In this document: positions 6,375-62,330 of the stretch, piece by piece | Layout: each line of letters opens with the position of its first letter | How positions within the stretch are numbered: position 1 is the stretch's first letter | DNA from: Sipunculus nudus | Lineage: Eukaryota; Annelida; Sipuncula; Golfingiida; Sipunculidae | Direction: 5' to 3' | DNA length: 64,000 nt | NCBI GenBank assembly: GCA_026874595.1 | Contig: CM049322.1 | Span: 44,084,840 to 44,148,839 of the forward strand | The notes under the pieces: model-generated | Databases searched by the model: none | Told to the model about the DNA's origin: nothing | Seen by the model: the letters and a program-made list of their open reading frames with translations, nothing else | Position numbers and translations under genes: made by a program

Positions 6375-7576
6375 TGAAATTCTGGATGTTTGTGTGTTTC
6401 ATCACATTACACGTATTAACATCTGCCACAACCCGCAGACCATATGGTTGTATGCGCCATAAATCCTCTTGACGCCGACATTTATGTACACAATGACTTA
6501 TCTGCATGAAACCATGAAACCTCCACTGTCATTTGAGTATTTTAATGAACTGACTCGGATCTCCATCAAACGAGTAGACCATGGGCCATTACGCTCAGCT
6601 GAATTTGACATTCAGGGGACGCAAGAATTAAGTTTTGCAGGATATCGTGTGCTGTTAACGGTGGAACTGTTTGATTTGAAGGTCACAAAAATAGAGAAAA
6701 ACGTGAACAAAGTAAAACAACAAAGGAGGCGCCATCAGTCTTAAGGAACTTATGAAACAATATATGATCAATATGCTTGATACTAGAGCTTTTGTTTCAA
6801 TTTTTTTATTACTCCAAAAGGTACCTAAGGACCCTATAGCTAGGAATATTTAGGTCGCGGTGACCTAATTTCAGTTCTTTGAGGTATTTTTTTTCAGAGA
6901 CCTCCAGAGGTGTACAGTAGGGTGTTTCAAGGTCTCTCGGTAACGACGTGTGCCCTGTAAAAGGACAGAGTAAGTCTTGCTTTCCCTGGGGTGACAAATG
7001 TTTACTTATGCGATTACTAATACAGTTTTATGGGAATTTGATTTTTGTATTTGCACTCTCCTGCTTTCGTCATTCGTTCCAGCTTTATGTTTTAGATCCC
7101 CCTCTTAAAAATATTATTACATATGTCAACTGTTTGTTGGTTTTTAATATAGAATTATATTAATAGGATATAGGATAGGATATAGTCACACCACTTGACG
7201 AGTATGTAATTTATTTGTTTCACAATATAATACGAAGAACAGGGTATTATGCAACCTGTATGCTATCGACTGGCCCAGATGAGACAGCTAATATATGTAT
7301 ATAACAGTTACTGTTATATTTCAAAACCGACTATGCCACAGTTAAATTTGGTAATAGGTACAGAAGAGGTAGATTTGCTCCATGCATGTAGGGAACACAC
7401 CATATATGTACATATACTTATTTGCTCACTTTTTAATGCCAAATCTGTGGAAAATTTTTAAGGAAAATCAAGCACTAATTTTAATTTTCATTAGACTCCA
7501 GAACATAGAGATCAATCTAATATGCATCGATGACATTTTATATCATTTTCTTTCACAAACCGTTATTTTTTTAAAT

Positions 7577-8349: not shown

Positions 8350-9005
8350 TTTGTTGAACTAACATTAAGTTTTAAAAGTTTTATGGGGCATGATTAAATA
8401 TTTTTTATAATAATTATACAGTTTATACTGATGAGTAGCGTTAATTCAGATGAGTTTTCTTTATTTAATCGAAATTTCAAAGGTATATTTTGTCTTCTAA
8501 GCATGAATCAGGTTTGGACTATTATAATAAACAACAGTTTATACTAATGAATAATTTAAATTCAGATGAGATTTTTCTTAATTTATTAGAACTTTTTAAA
8601 GCCAGAATGAGTTGTAATTATCAGGTGATATCAAACCTACTAAAATGATTCATTTAATATCTGTTTTGTTGTTGAATAACTCTCAGTATTACAAGTTTTA
8701 TGGGGCATGATTAAATATTTGCCGTAATAATAAACATACAGTTTACACTAATGAGTAGCGTTAACTTAGATGAGATTTTTCTTATTTTAATCAAAATGTT
8801 TTGAATCCAGACAGATTTTCAAATATCAGATGATATCTAACTTACTAAAATGATTCATATATTATCTATTCGTTTGTTGAACTAACTCTAAGTATTATAT
8901 TTCATGGGGCATGATTAAATATTTGTCAAAATACTAATAATACAGATTATCCTAATGAGTAGCGTTAATTCAGATGAAATATTTCTTAATTTAATCAATT
9001 TTGTA
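8350..9005 (+). repeat. Degenerate tandem repeat, ~200-bp unit
   Basis: The phrase ATGGGGCATGATTAAATATT recurs at 8383, 8700 and 8904, each followed about 50 bp later by GAGTAGCGTTAA (8433, 8752, 8955); a partial unit lies near 8520-8600. Copies are clearly diverged and AT-rich. No coding content. Confidence 0.75.
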
Positions 9006-20672: not shown

Positions 20673-20934
20673 CAGTGAAACCTCGTTGTGTCGAACTCGC
20701 TTAAGTAGAATACCCCGCTTATGTCGAAGTAACAGACTCGATATTTCGGATATCTCTAGTTAAATTATAACGAAATAAAACACGCTTTTCTCGAACCTCG
20801 GATGTGTCGAAGTAACAGACTCGATATTTCGGATATCTCTAGTTAAATTATAACGAAATAAAACACGCTTTTGTCGAACCTCGGATGTGTCGAAATATTC
20901 TGTTGGTCCCTTCGACACAACGAGGTTTCACAGT
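20673..20934 (+). mobile_element. Small pogo/Tigger-type MITE with internal 83-bp duplication
   Basis: Begins TA|CAGTGAAACCTCGTTGTG and ends with the reverse complement, CACAACGAGGTTTCAC, whose final bases are altered (CAGTG instead of CTGTA). Its first 60 bp match the subterminal region of the larger element at 30358-31447, so the two belong to one family. Inside are two tandem copies of an 83-bp unit at 20722-20804 and 20805-20887. No transposase. Confidence 0.8.
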
Positions 20935-25315: not shown

Positions 25316-25477
25316 CACGCTTTGCTCCTATAGGAAAATAAATATATCACTGAGCGTGAACTAGATAATTATGAGAAAGGTTTGAGGACCAGGGAGACAC
25401 CGGGAAAGCGTCGTTAATATCAGATTTGGAATAACAAGAACACGCCGTCTTAAGTCTGCCATCAAGACAATTACAGT

Positions 25478-26497
25478 ATGCAACGGATCACAAAATTCGC
25501 GTGTGTGTGTGGTTTAGCTGTAGGAACGGCCTTGTTACTGATGAAATTAGGAATTCAAATGGGGTCGCCGGTTACACAAAGGATATCGAATACGATAGAT
25601 AAACCTATTCAAAATGTATCATTGGATGGATCAACGACTACAGGCTCTTCTAACACTTATATGGATCCTGACGGAGTCCCGCAATACCCGAAATTACTCT
25701 TATATGACGGTCAAAAATGTCCCAATGACACCAAATATATAGTATACGTATACGCAACGAATGGGAAACGTGAGAACAGGGATATTATACGTGCTTCATA
25801 CGGACACAAAGCAGTCCAAGAAAAATGGAGTATGCGGGTTATATTTGTTTTTGGACTGATCAGACAAGGCAAAAATAGGTTAATAATACCTGATGATTTA
25901 CTTGCAGAATATCATCTGCACAAAGATTTGATCATTGGGGAATTCATCGATTCATACAGAAACCTCAGTTATAAAGGGCTGGCAGCTTTCAATTATATAA
26001 CTCATTTTTGTCCTAACACCAGGTTCGTCATCAAAACAGACGATGATGTTGTTGTTAATATTGACTTCATTATGACATGGTTAGGAACCCGGCATAACAA
26101 CAAGAGGACTGTATATGGTAGAATTCATAAGCCTTACCCGCCATTTATATGTCCAAAAATGCCTAAGTGGTGTGTAACAAAAGACGAATATCCAAGAAAA
26201 CTCAACCCTCCGTACATGGCTGGTACAGGTTACATCTTCACGTCAGATATAATAACTGATTTATACATAGCTAGTTTACAGACCCCCATATTTTTATTGG
26301 AGGATGTTTATTTTACAGGCTTGCTGGTTGAGCGGCTCGGGAACGTAAAGATGGAGAACTTAGGAGAATCCGTACAGATATTTGGACCAGATGAATGTGG
26401 GAATCCAAAGGTAGCATTTACTCATACCCTTGGAGCTGGAAGTCGGGTCATGCAACATTGCTTTAAGAAATTACAAAATGCAGTTAATAAAGGTTGA
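25478..26497 (+). CDS. GT31-family beta-1,3-glycosyltransferase (galactosyltransferase-like), copy 2
   Basis: Intronless paralogue of the gene at 1895, also 339 codons, predicted type II Golgi membrane protein of the GT31 family. Seen: membrane anchor at about residues 8-25, RDIIR at 101-105, TDDD at 187-190 (metal/nucleotide-sugar binding), PPYMAGTGYIF at 244-254, EDVYFTGL at 275-282, and paired cysteines in the C-terminal half that are kept in both copies. Possible N-glycosylation sites are N46-V-S, N83-D-T and N162-L-S, so the stem sequon differs in place from copy 1. Residue 196, just after the DxD block, is Asp here and Ala in copy 1. The ATG at 25478 is the only reasonable start, since no in-frame start lies further upstream. 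Both genes have intact frames, so both are probably functional. Exact sugar donor and acceptor cannot be read from sequence. Confidence 0.93.
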   Translation: MQRITKFACVCGLAVGTALLLMKLGIQMGSPVTQRISNTIDKPIQNVSLDGSTTTGSSNTYMDPDGVPQYPKLLLYDGQKCPNDTKYIVYVYATNGKRENRDIIRASYGHKAVQEKWSMRVIFVFGLIRQGKNRLIIPDDLLAEYHLHKDLIIGEFIDSYRNLSYKGLAAFNYITHFCPNTRFVIKTDDDVVVNIDFIMTWLGTRHNNKRTVYGRIHKPYPPFICPKMPKWCVTKDEYPRKLNPPYMAGTGYIFTSDIITDLYIASLQTPIFLLEDVYFTGLLVERLGNVKMENLGESVQIFGPDECGNPKVAFTHTLGAGSRVMQHCFKKLQNAVNKG

Positions 26498-56279: not shown

Positions 56280-57110
56280 ATCGAATCATACACTGTCATC
56301 ACACCATGCACTGTCAAAACAGCTTGCACTCTCATCATACCCAACACTGTCACCACACGATGTACTGTCAAAACAGCTTGCATTCTAATCACTCCCAACA
56401 CTGTCATCACACCATGCCCTGTCAAAACAGCCTGCACTCTCATCACACCCAACACTGTCACCACACCATGCAATATTAAAACAGCTTGCACTCTCATCAC
56501 ATCCAATACTGTCACCACACCATGCACTGTCAACACAGCTTGCACTCTCATCCCAACCAACACTGTCACCACTCCATACACTGTCAAAACAGCTTCCACT
56601 CTCATCACACCCAACACTGTCACCACACGACGAACTATCAAAACAGCTTGCACTCTCATCACACCCAGCACTGTCACCACACCAAGCCCTGTCAAAACAG
56701 CTTGCACTCTCATCACACCCAACACTGTCACCACACCATGCACTGTCAAAACAGCTTGCACTCTCATCACACCCAACACTGTCACCACACCATGCACTGT
56801 CAAAACAGCTTGCACTCTCATCACACCCAACACTGTCACCATACGACGAACTATCAAAACAGCTTGCACTCTCGTCACACCCAGCACTGTCACCACCCCA
56901 TGCACTGTCAAAACAGCTTGCACTCTCATCACACCCAACACTGTCACCACACCATGCACTGTCAAAACAGCTTGTACTCTCGTCACACCAAACACTGTCA
57001 CCACACCATGCACTGTCAAAACGGCTTGCACTCTCATCACTCTCAACACTGTCATCACACCATGCGTGGACTTCACAACAGTCACAAGCTCTCATCACAT
57101 ATAACTGTTA
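56280..57110 (+). repeat. Satellite block 1: 54-bp unit (3 x 18 bp), ~15 copies
   Basis: Each unit consists of three related 18-mers: GTCACCACACCATGCACT, then a GTCAAAACAGCTTGCACT-like one, then a CTCATCACACCCAACACT-like one. Units differ by a few substitutions. Because 54 is divisible by three, a Thr/Cys-rich frame (56229-57104) and two overlapping minus-strand frames stay open; there is no signal peptide, splice or promoter evidence for a gene. Confidence 0.92.
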
Positions 57111-59340
57111 TCACACCAAACACAGCCACAGCTTCATGCTCTTTCAGGACATCATGTATTTTTACCATGTACCGTCATCACATCTGGCACTGTTATGTGT
57201 CACCATACCATGTACCGCCGTCACATCATGTACTGTTATCTGACACCATGCTATGTACCGCCATAACATAACGCACTGTTATATGTCATCATGCCATATA
57301 ACTCCACCACATCATGTACTGTTATATGTCATCATGCCAAATAACACCACCACATCATGTACTGTTATCCGACACCATGCTATGTACCACCATCACATCA
57401 AGTACTGATATATAACACCATGCCATGTACATCCATCACATCACGTACTTTTACCTACCATCATGCCATATACCACCACCACATCACGTACTCTCATTTG
57501 CTATAAGCCATGTACCGCCATCACATCACCTACTGTTATCTGACACCATACCATGAACCGCAATAACATCACGTACTGCTGTCTGTCACCATACCTTGTA
57601 AAGCCATCAGATCATGAACTGTGATCCGTCACCATACTCTGCACTGTCAACGCATCATGCGCTGTTATCTGACGCCATACAATGCACTGTCATCATATCT
57701 TATAAGGTCCGCTGATCACGCACTGTCATCACATTTTGTACTGTAATCATTTCGTGTTCTGTCATCAAATAAGGCACGTTCAATCAATCATGTTCTGTCA
57801 ACAAATTAGGCGCTGTCAATCATTCATGTTCTGTCGACAAATAATGCACGATCACAACATGCATTCTCATCTTAACATACACTGCTAACTGTCATTATAT
57901 CAAGCACTGTCATCACATTATGTACTGCCCTTTGTCACCACACCATGGACTGTTAACCCTTATCACATCATACTGTTCCTGAAACCACACCATGCAGTAT
58001 CACATCATGCCTATCATCACATCATTCCTGCAATCACATCATGTATTGACATCAAAATATGCACTGCCATCCCATTATGTTCTGTCATCACATCAGGTAT
58101 TGAAATCACAATATGCACTGTCATCACATCATGTACTGTCATCATATCGTGTATTCACATTACAATATTCACTGTCATCACATCATCTACTGTCACCACA
58201 TCAGGTATTGACGTCACAATATGCACAGTCATCACATCATGTTATGTCATCATTTCATGCATTGACATAACAATATGCTCTGTATCTGTACTGACATCAC
58301 AATATGCACTGTCATCACATTATGTCCTGTCATCATATCGTGTATTGACATCACAATATTCACTGTCATCACATCAACTACTGTCACCACATCAGGTATT
58401 GACGTCACAATATGCAATGTCATCACATCATGTACTGTCATCATATTGTGTATTGACATGACAATATTCACTGTCATCACATCATGCACGGTCATCGCAT
58501 CATGTATTGATATCACAACATGCACTGACATCACATCATGTACTGTCGTCACTTCATGTATTGAATTAACAATATGCACTGTATCTGTATTGACATCACA
58601 ATAAGCACTGTCGTCACATCATGTCCTGTCATCACATCAGACATTAAAATCACAATATGCACCGTCTTTACATCATGTACTGTAATCATATCGTGTATTG
58701 ATATCACAATATTCACTGCCATCACATCAGGTAAGGTCTTCACTTCATGGCATGTCATCACATCAGGTATTAAAATCACTTCATGTATTGAATTAACAAT
58801 ATGCACTATATCTGTATTGTCATCACATCATGTATTGACATCACACCATGTCCTGTCTTCACATCATGGCAAGTCATCATATCATATACTGTCATCACAT
58901 CAGGTATTGAAATCACAATATGAACTGTCATCACATCATGTATTGTCATCATTTCGTGTATTGACGTCACACTTTTCACTGTCATCATATCACATACTGT
59001 CATCACATCAGATACTGACATTACAATATGCACTGTCATCACATCTTGTCCTGTCATCACATTATGTATTGACATCATAATATGGACTGTCATCACATCG
59101 AGGCATGTCATCATACCTTATTCTTTCATCACATCTGTATTGTCATCACAATATGTATTGTCATCACACCTTGTCCTGTCATCACGTCGTGTATTGACAT
59201 CAAAATATGCACTGTCATCACAATATGTCCTGTCTTCACATCATGTATTGTCATCACATAATGTATTGACCTTTCATTATGCACTGTCATCACAGCATGT
59301 ACGGTCATCACATCATGTGCTGTCATCACAGCATGTATTG
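57111..59340 (+). repeat. Satellite, degenerate 18-bp-unit region
   Basis: Continuous but diverged 18-mers of the GTCATCACATCATGTATT type; periodicity is irregular in 57120-57990 and regular from about 58000. Local higher-order copies are marked by an inserted phrase, TCTGTATCTGTA(C/T)TGACATC in part, at about 58280, 58580 and 58806. Confidence 0.85.
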
Positions 59341-62130
59341 ACATCACAATATGCACTGTCATTAATTCAGGTTTTGTCATCACATCATGTATTGACATCA
59401 CATTATGCACTGTCATTAATTCAGGTATTGTCATCACATCATGTATTGACATCACAATATGCACTGTCATTAATTCAGGTATTGTCATCACATCATGTAT
59501 TGACATCACAATATGCACTGTCATTAATTCAGGTATTGTCATCACATCATGTATGGACATCACATTATGCACTGCCATTAATTCAGGTATTTTCATCACA
59601 TCATGTATTGACATCACATTATGCACTGTCATTAATTCAGGTATTGTCATCACATCATGTATTGACATCACAATATGCACTGTCATTAATTCAGGTATTG
59701 TCATCACATCATGTATTGACATCACATTATGCACTGTCATTAATTCAGGTATTGTCATCACATCATGTATTGACATCACATTATGCACTGTCATTAATTC
59801 AGGTATTGTCATCACATCATGTATTGACATCACATTATGCACTGTCATTAATTCAGGTATTGTCATCACATCATGTGCTGTCATCACAGCATGTATTGAC
59901 ATCACAATATGCACTGTCATTAATTCAGGTTTTGTCATCACATCATGTATTGACATCACATTATGCACTGTCATTAATTCAGGTATTGTCATCACATCAT
60001 GTATTTACATCACAATATGCACTGTCATTAATTCAGGTATTGTCATCACATCATGTATTGACATCACAATATGCACTGTCATTAATTCAGGTATTGTCAT
60101 CACATCATGTATTGACATCACATTATGCACTGCCATTAATTCAGGTATTGTCATCACATCATGTATTGACATCACATTATGCACTGTCATTAATTCAGGT
60201 ATTGTCATCACATCATGTATTGACATCACAATATGCACTGTCATTAATTCAGGTATTGTCATCACATCATGTATTGACATCAGAATATGCACTGTCATTA
60301 ATTCAGGTATTGTCATCACATCATGTATTGACATCACATTATGCACTGTCATTAATTCAGGTATTGTCATCACATTATGTATTGACATCACATTATGCAC
60401 TGTCATTAATTCAGGTATTGTCATCACATCATGTATTGACATCACATTATGCACTGTCATTAATTCAGGTATTGTCATCACATCATGTGCTGTCATCACA
60501 GCATGTATTGACATCACAATATGCACTGTCATTAATTCAGGTTTTGTCATCACATCATGTATTGACATCACATTATGCACTGTCATTAATTCAGGTATTG
60601 TCATCACATCATGTATTGACATCACAATATGCACTGTCATTAATTCAGGTATTGTCATCACATCATGTATTGACATCATAATATATGCACTGTCATTAAT
60701 TCAGGTATTGTCATCACATCATGTATTGACATCACATTATGCACTGCCATTAATTCAGGTATTGTCATCACATCATGTATTGACATCACATTATGCACTG
60801 TCATTAATTCAGGTATTGTCATCACATCATGTATTGACATCACAATATGCACTGTCATTAATTCAGGTATTGTCATCACATCATGTATTGACATCACAAT
60901 ATGCACTGTCATTAATTCAGGTATTGTCATCACATCATGTATTGACATCACATTATGCACTGTCATTAATTCAGGTATTGTCATCACATCATGTATTGAC
61001 ATCACATTATGCACTGTCATTAATTCAGGTATTGTCATCACATCATGTATTGACATCACATTATGCACTGTCATTAATTCAGGTATTGTCATCACATCAT
61101 GTATTGACATCACATTATGCACTGTCATTAATTCAGGTATTGTCATCACATCATGTATTGACATCACATTATGCACTGTCATTAATTCAGGTATTGTCAT
61201 CACATCATGTATTGACATCACATTATGCACTGTCATTAATTCAGGTATTGTCATCACATCATGTATTGACATCACATTATGCACTGTCATTAATTCAGGT
61301 ATTGTCATCACATCATGTATTGACATCACATTATGCACTGTCATTAATTCAGGTATTGTCATCACATCATGTATTGACATCACAATATGCACTGTCATTA
61401 ATTCAGGTATTGTCATCACATCATGTATTGACATCACATTATGCACTGTCATTAATTCAGGTATTGTCATCACATCATGTATTGACATCACAATATGCAC
61501 TGTCATTAATTCAGGTTTTGTCATCACATCATGTATTGACATCACATTATGCACTGTCATTAATTCAGGTATTGTCATCACATCATGTATTGACATCACA
61601 TTATGCACTGTCATTATGCACTGTCATCACATCATGTATTGACATCACATTATGCACTGTCATTAATTCAGGTATTGTCATCACATCATGTATTGACATC
61701 ATATTATGCACTGTCATTAATTCAGGTATTGTCATCACATCATGTATTGACATCACATTATGCACTGTCATTAATTCAGGTATTGTCATCACATCATGTA
61801 TTGACATCACATTATGCACTGTCATTAATTCAGGTATTGTCATCACATCATGTATTGACATCACATTATGCACTGTCATTAATTCAGGTATTGTCATCAC
61901 ATCATGTATTGACATCACATTATGCACTGTCATTAATTCAGGTATTGTCATCACATCATGTATTGACATCACATTATGCACTGTCATTAATTCAGGTATT
62001 GTCATCACATCATGTATTGACATCACAATATGCACTCTCATTAATTCAGGTATTGTCATTACATCATGTATTGACATCACATTATGCACTGTCATTAATT
62101 CAGGTATTGTCATCACATCATGTATTTACA
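59341..62130 (+). repeat. Satellite block 2: 54-bp unit (3 x 18 bp), ~51 copies, with higher-order repeats
   Basis: Each 54-bp unit is three 18-mers, GTCATTAATTCAGGTATT then two GNCATCACATNATGNANT-type. Starts are exactly 54 bp apart (59358, 59412, 59466 and on). A marker with an extra 18-mer (GTGCTGTCATCACAGCAT) recurs at 59317, 59875 and 60487, spacings of 558 and 612 bp (10 or 11 units plus 18). Other variants repeat at the same spacing. A 2-bp insertion near 60680 shifts the frame. Open frames of 513 and 916 codons on + and several on - are a consequence of the six-codon period. Confidence 0.95.
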
Positions 62131-62330
62131 TCACAATATGCTATGTCATCATATTTTGCACTGTTGTCGTCATCATCACCATTATCGTCACCACCATGCA
62201 GTGTCAACAAATTAAGTATATCAACAAATCAAGCACGGTCTTCACTTGGTTTCATCTCCACCACATTATGAAGTTCCGTCACATCATGCACTGTAAACCT
62301 TGATCACTCATCCCACCATGCATTGTCAGG
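62131..62330 (+). repeat. Degenerate trailing edge of the satellite
   Basis: Scattered CATCACATCATGCACTGT words fade out by about 62330. Confidence 0.7.

Follow-up and report, generated by a model that had tools for sequence, protein, structure and literature searches.

The locus and its tandem array

The window analysed here is a stretch of 64,000 nucleotides (C17:44084840-44148839) on a 61.1-Mb chromosome of Sipunculus nudus, in an assembly of 1.43 Gb and 153 contigs. It holds a tandem array with galactosyltransferase-like reading frames on both sides. Seventeen frames were compared with Pfam: ten have no match, three belong to the array and have five matches to other families, and four match Galactosyl_T (PF01762):

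1733-2914 of the window: Galactosyl_T frame (Pfam)
25454-26497 of the window: Galactosyl_T frame (Pfam)
L012:7733-8878, outside the window: Galactosyl_T frame (Pfam)
L013:8895-9749, outside the window: Galactosyl_T frame (Pfam)

These four, 285 to 393 codons long, lie around the array in a stretch of about 82 kb and are probably a gene cluster. No Rfam family reaches its gathering score anywhere in the window.

The array is wider than the core of three blocks (59317-61100) described in the next section. According to TRF it extends from about 56290 to 62164, about 5.9 kb, and outside the core it is made up of strata:

56290..57065, unstranded: left 54-bp stratum, 14.4 copies, its triplet of 18-mers unlike that of the core (TRF)
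57165..57699, unstranded: stratum with periods of 43, 86 and 129 bp, 71-76% matches (TRF); lag 129 at 0.66-0.81 where best
57755..57854, unstranded: short 36-bp stratum, 2.8 copies (TRF)
57999..59316, unstranded: stratum of degenerate 18-mers (TRF and unit list)
61101..62149, unstranded: homogeneous 54-bp stratum, marker absent (TRF and unit cutting)

The two 54-bp strata differ in consensus. In the left one the best local lag is often 216 bp (four units), and an 18-bp TRF row covers part of it at 63% matches; the homogeneous one contains a single unit of 103 bp (61564-61666), 49 bp above unit size. The degenerate stratum has older block duplications of its own, at lags of 299 and 191 bp (0.82-0.92 where best). 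Identity to the 18-mer founder, 0.724 in the left stratum (0.617 shuffled) and 0.813 in the degenerate one (0.626 shuffled), spans 0.724-0.813 over three strata of the array, compared with 0.617-0.635 after shuffling (five shuffles each).

What is such an array? Units of 18 and 54 bp lie within the range for minisatellites or VNTRs (about 10-100 bp), and about 5.9 kb lies within the 0.5-30 kb or so that they occupy in euchromatin, euchromatin being taken here from the gene neighbours only, the Galactosyl_T-like frames on either side. In all probability the array is a minisatellite of this size between genes, containing nested block duplications.

One might think of it instead as an exon that encodes a repetitive protein. 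The plus strand has stop-to-stop frames of 1013 and 585 codons, the 54-mer is open in three of its six frames, and frames of the array reach the curated Pfam cut-offs for Gas_vesicle (40.0 vs 25), Plasmodium_HRP (48.7 vs 45.8) and DCB (25.7 vs 25.6). Those three families are unrelated to each other, however, and I read the matches as chance matches of repetitive sequence. At least three open frames are present in 635 of 5000 shuffled 54-mers. Furthermore, the frame is shifted within the array by a 2-bp insertion and by the unit that is 49 bp too long, and the period of the 43-bp stratum is no multiple of three. Given the shuffles, the frame-shifting changes and the 43-bp stratum, a coding repeat is very hard to believe in, the three matches at cut-off notwithstanding.

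Two short tandem duplications are found elsewhere in the window (both TRF), one at 8524-8998 (204 bp, 2.3 copies, 81% matches) and the other at 20722-20894 (83 bp, 2.1 copies, 98% matches).

Three tandem blocks

The original prediction saw three levels of repetition in the core: an 18-bp unit, a 54-bp triplet, and a higher-order repeat in which the same series of variants recurs behind a marker unit. It placed the marker at 59317, 59875 and 60487 and the GCCATTAATTC variant at 59574, 60132 and 60746. These positions are right, the variant and the core of the marker each occurring three times in the window, and the recurrence is real as well. One series of eleven 54-mers is present in three tandem copies:

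59317..59874, unstranded: block 1, 558 bp, the series minus one 54-bp unit
59875..60486, unstranded: block 2, 612 bp
60487..61100, unstranded: block 3, 614 bp, with a 2-bp insertion; right edge by length only

If M stands for the 72-bp marker unit, F for the GGTTTT unit, 1 for CACAATATG, 0 for CACATTATG and G for GCCATTAA, with six units that carry a private mutation pooled with their parent class, then block 1 reads M F 1 1 G 0 1 0 0 0 and blocks 2 and 3 both read M F 1 1 G 0 1 1 0 0 0. Block 3 ends, at about 61100, inside a run of identical 0 units, so that its right edge had to be set by length rather than by a marker. Its 2-bp insertion, which accounts for 614 rather than 612 bp, sits in the 56-bp unit starting at 60644. 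Cutting 59241-62170 at TTCAGGT produces 49 units: 45 of 54 bp, two 72-bp markers, and single units of 56 and 103 bp. There are two markers among them and not three, since the first lies just left of the first cut.

The longest run of labels to be repeated is 11 units, while in 2000 shuffles of the 32 labels it averaged 3.9 and never exceeded 9. The exact run common to blocks 1 and 2 is 7, and the block is present in three copies only. With gap columns left out, blocks 1 and 2 are 99.3% identical (4 mismatches), blocks 2 and 3 likewise 99.3% (4), and blocks 1 and 3 99.5% (3). The 612 bp preceding block 1 are 85.3% identical to it.

All three levels are borne out. Compared pairwise, the three 18-mers that form the 54-mer share 14, 14 and 10 of their 18 positions. 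The 54-mers within block 2 differ by a mean of 1.53 bases (45 pairs, the 72-bp unit left out), and blocks 2 and 3 differ by about 0.36 per unit. That blocks are more alike than the units inside them is what characterizes the structure of a higher-order repeat. The levels do contrast, though by little, block 3 still being 98.0% identical to the 612 bp that follow.

Tandem arrays are prone to assembly errors, and the blocks were read from an assembly. Against the view that the assembly manufactured them, each block has substitutions or an indel of its own, and block 1 is without one unit. Private variants occur in every block and none, by the unit list, is common to just two. The 1.8 kb that the blocks occupy is also short relative to a long read. 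The chance of an artefact is very slight.

Related arrays on other chromosomes

A 27-bp piece of the 54-mer has at least 128 matches with three mismatches or fewer in the 1.43-Gb assembly (78 and 50 by strand; a backward control gave 0), where counts within repeats may be lower bounds and arrays collapsed out of the assembly are invisible. Matches with no or one mismatch number 53 (41 exact and 12 with one mismatch); every one lies within the C17 array, and none was found beyond it in the 1.43 Gb. Among the 100 matches listed of the 128, all fall in four arrays: the one on C17, one on C3 at 91.23 Mb, and two on C13 at 22.44 and 22.48 Mb. The 47 listed in addition to the 53 are distributed over the C17 array and these three others, which are of the same 18-mer family.

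In the C3 and C13 arrays the majority 18-mer is GTCATCACATCATGTACT. Such majority sequences lean towards the founder, because the decomposition into 18-mers was guided by the founder itself. The majority 18-mer is one base off the founder in two of eight stretches (the young 54-bp core) and two bases off in 56290-57065. The larger of the C13 arrays (C13:22484304-22489139) has block duplications of its own, one at a lag of 546 (0.99-1.00 in 120-bp windows clear of the edges) and a second at a lag of 1865 (0.87-0.97 where best).

A match on C1 (L010:988-1432, at 2.117 Mb) was rejected as a member of the family: it is a 20-bp minisatellite with consensus TACAATACATGATGTCATGA, so its period is another, and the match is weak. 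Positions 7109-7142 of the window match a flank of the C3 array (34 bp, 91%), perhaps as a dispersed repeat.

That four arrays, on C17, C3 and C13, share an 18-mer founder might be explained if a transposable element, with the array lying inside it, had spread this founder between chromosomes. Such an element should be visible in the flanks. A comparison of 0.9-10 kb of flank, with AT runs masked, produced one flank-to-flank match at E 1e-3, in which 74 bp of a C13 flank resemble a C3 flank at 81%; nothing matches the C17 flanks at that threshold. With E up to 1, the matches are of just 12-22 bp, and the inverted repeats shown within the C17 flanks are AT-rich runs (on the left 25 of 44 pairs were shown, on the right all 8). 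With a single C13/C3 match to speak for a shared element, a transposon is quite improbable.

An alternative is that a single 18-bp founder gave rise to arrays on three chromosomes without bringing flanks along, for instance through circular repeat DNA that reinserted, and that higher-order layers then grew from seeds independently, as on C17 and C13. I offer this as a speculation that is rather unlikely to be correct. If it were, the onset of higher-order repeats outside centromeres would have four natural replicates in these arrays.

A proposed origin

The minisatellite reading gains support from the founder common to C17, C3 and two places on C13. I propose that an 18-bp founder, GTCATCACATCATGTACT, gave rise to a tandem array. 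Three adjacent 18-mers, by then already diverged, would have been amplified jointly, yielding the 54-bp unit, and a block of eleven such units, including the 72-bp marker unit, would then have been copied until three lay in tandem. One block would later have lost a unit, and each would have acquired private mutations. The means may have been unequal exchange, replication slippage or gene conversion. The layers, the identity of the blocks, and the block duplications of other lengths in the older stratum and the sister array are all observed; the order of events and the mechanism of exchange are inferred, and the array presumably has no function.

How much of this should be expected of a repeat left to itself? 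A neutral model at the level of units, with random block duplications, deletions and point mutations, was run 540 times under lax criteria, which required 5-15 units per block and a within/between ratio of at least 2.5, and 900 times at the observed contrast (ratio of at least 4). Under the lax criteria a two-copy block arose in 433 of 540 runs and a three-copy block in 78. At the observed contrast the counts out of 900 were 695 and 72 for blocks of 5-15 units, and 148 and 4 when blocks had 10-12 units. Two-copy blocks are common in neutral runs, and therefore the duplication of a block needs no special mechanism. By this simple model, block duplication would be ordinary and the third copy of an 11-unit block less so. 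That three tandem copies are a minority outcome has to be weighed against the minisatellite reading. Once two blocks were present, however, misalignment by a whole block could easily yield a third. A preference for such re-misalignment, absent from the model, would raise the number of three-copy outcomes, and real arrays may have it.

Resemblance to centromeric and other repeats

The original prediction likened the array to centromeric higher-order repeats, and as far as nested structure goes the likeness stands. It does not extend further: there are three copies at one locus, Galactosyl_T-like frames on both sides, a small contrast between levels, and matches with no or one mismatch that are confined, within this assembly, to the array. 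The very short founder, which had been offered as a departure from the centromeric pattern, is no departure, since higher-order growth from short monomers is a general model already in print (the available text of PMC7767330).

Could the array nonetheless belong to a major satellite, centromeric or other, with its block as a centromeric higher-order repeat? The way the variants are nested and the high identity of the blocks do recall such repeats. A centromeric satellite, however, should form abundant arrays on many chromosomes, and the genome-wide count of the 27-mer (at least 128 in 1.43 Gb) is not of that kind. All 53 of the closest matches lie inside the C17 array, in an assembly where collapsed arrays would be invisible, and the 100 listed of the 128 make up just four arrays on three chromosomes. 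Galactosyltransferase-like frames stand on either side. I find such a satellite scarcely conceivable here. A higher-order repeat within a window is, alone, no sign of a centromere.

The minisatellite of C17 is ordinary in kind, another example of a type of repeat already known. How short monomers develop into higher-order repeats is treated in reviews (PMC7767330, PMC8122249, PMC5615363, in the text available of each). The human MsH42 minisatellite, a VNTR, is similar in what is accessible of PMC7767330: a short tandem unit, an array of kilobase size, and duplication of repeat blocks together with point changes. The C17 array differs in displaying three size levels (18, 54 and 612 bp) directly, with older strata on its left. 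In alpha satellite, as the available part of PMC8122249 describes it, several diverged monomers are amplified as one block and the blocks are 97-100% alike, as here. The monomers, though, are about 70% identical, whereas the 54-mers of a C17 block differ at about 1.5 of their 54 bases, and the C17 array has three copies at one locus where a centromere is not indicated. The scallop Adamussium colbecki has in Ac4p1 a low-abundance repeat with subrepeats, whose higher-order units are attributed to unequal crossing-over or slippage (PMC5874043, available text); its monomer, at about 726 bp, is of another size, and the likeness drawn here is one of description.

No long-standing question becomes directly testable through the array. 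What it does provide is a readable case of nested repeat formation, from founder to triplet to block, with older strata beside a young core and a sister array with other block lengths. The mouse major satellite likewise has nested levels, built from a founder of about 9 bp, and differs from the C17 array in being pericentromeric and abundant.
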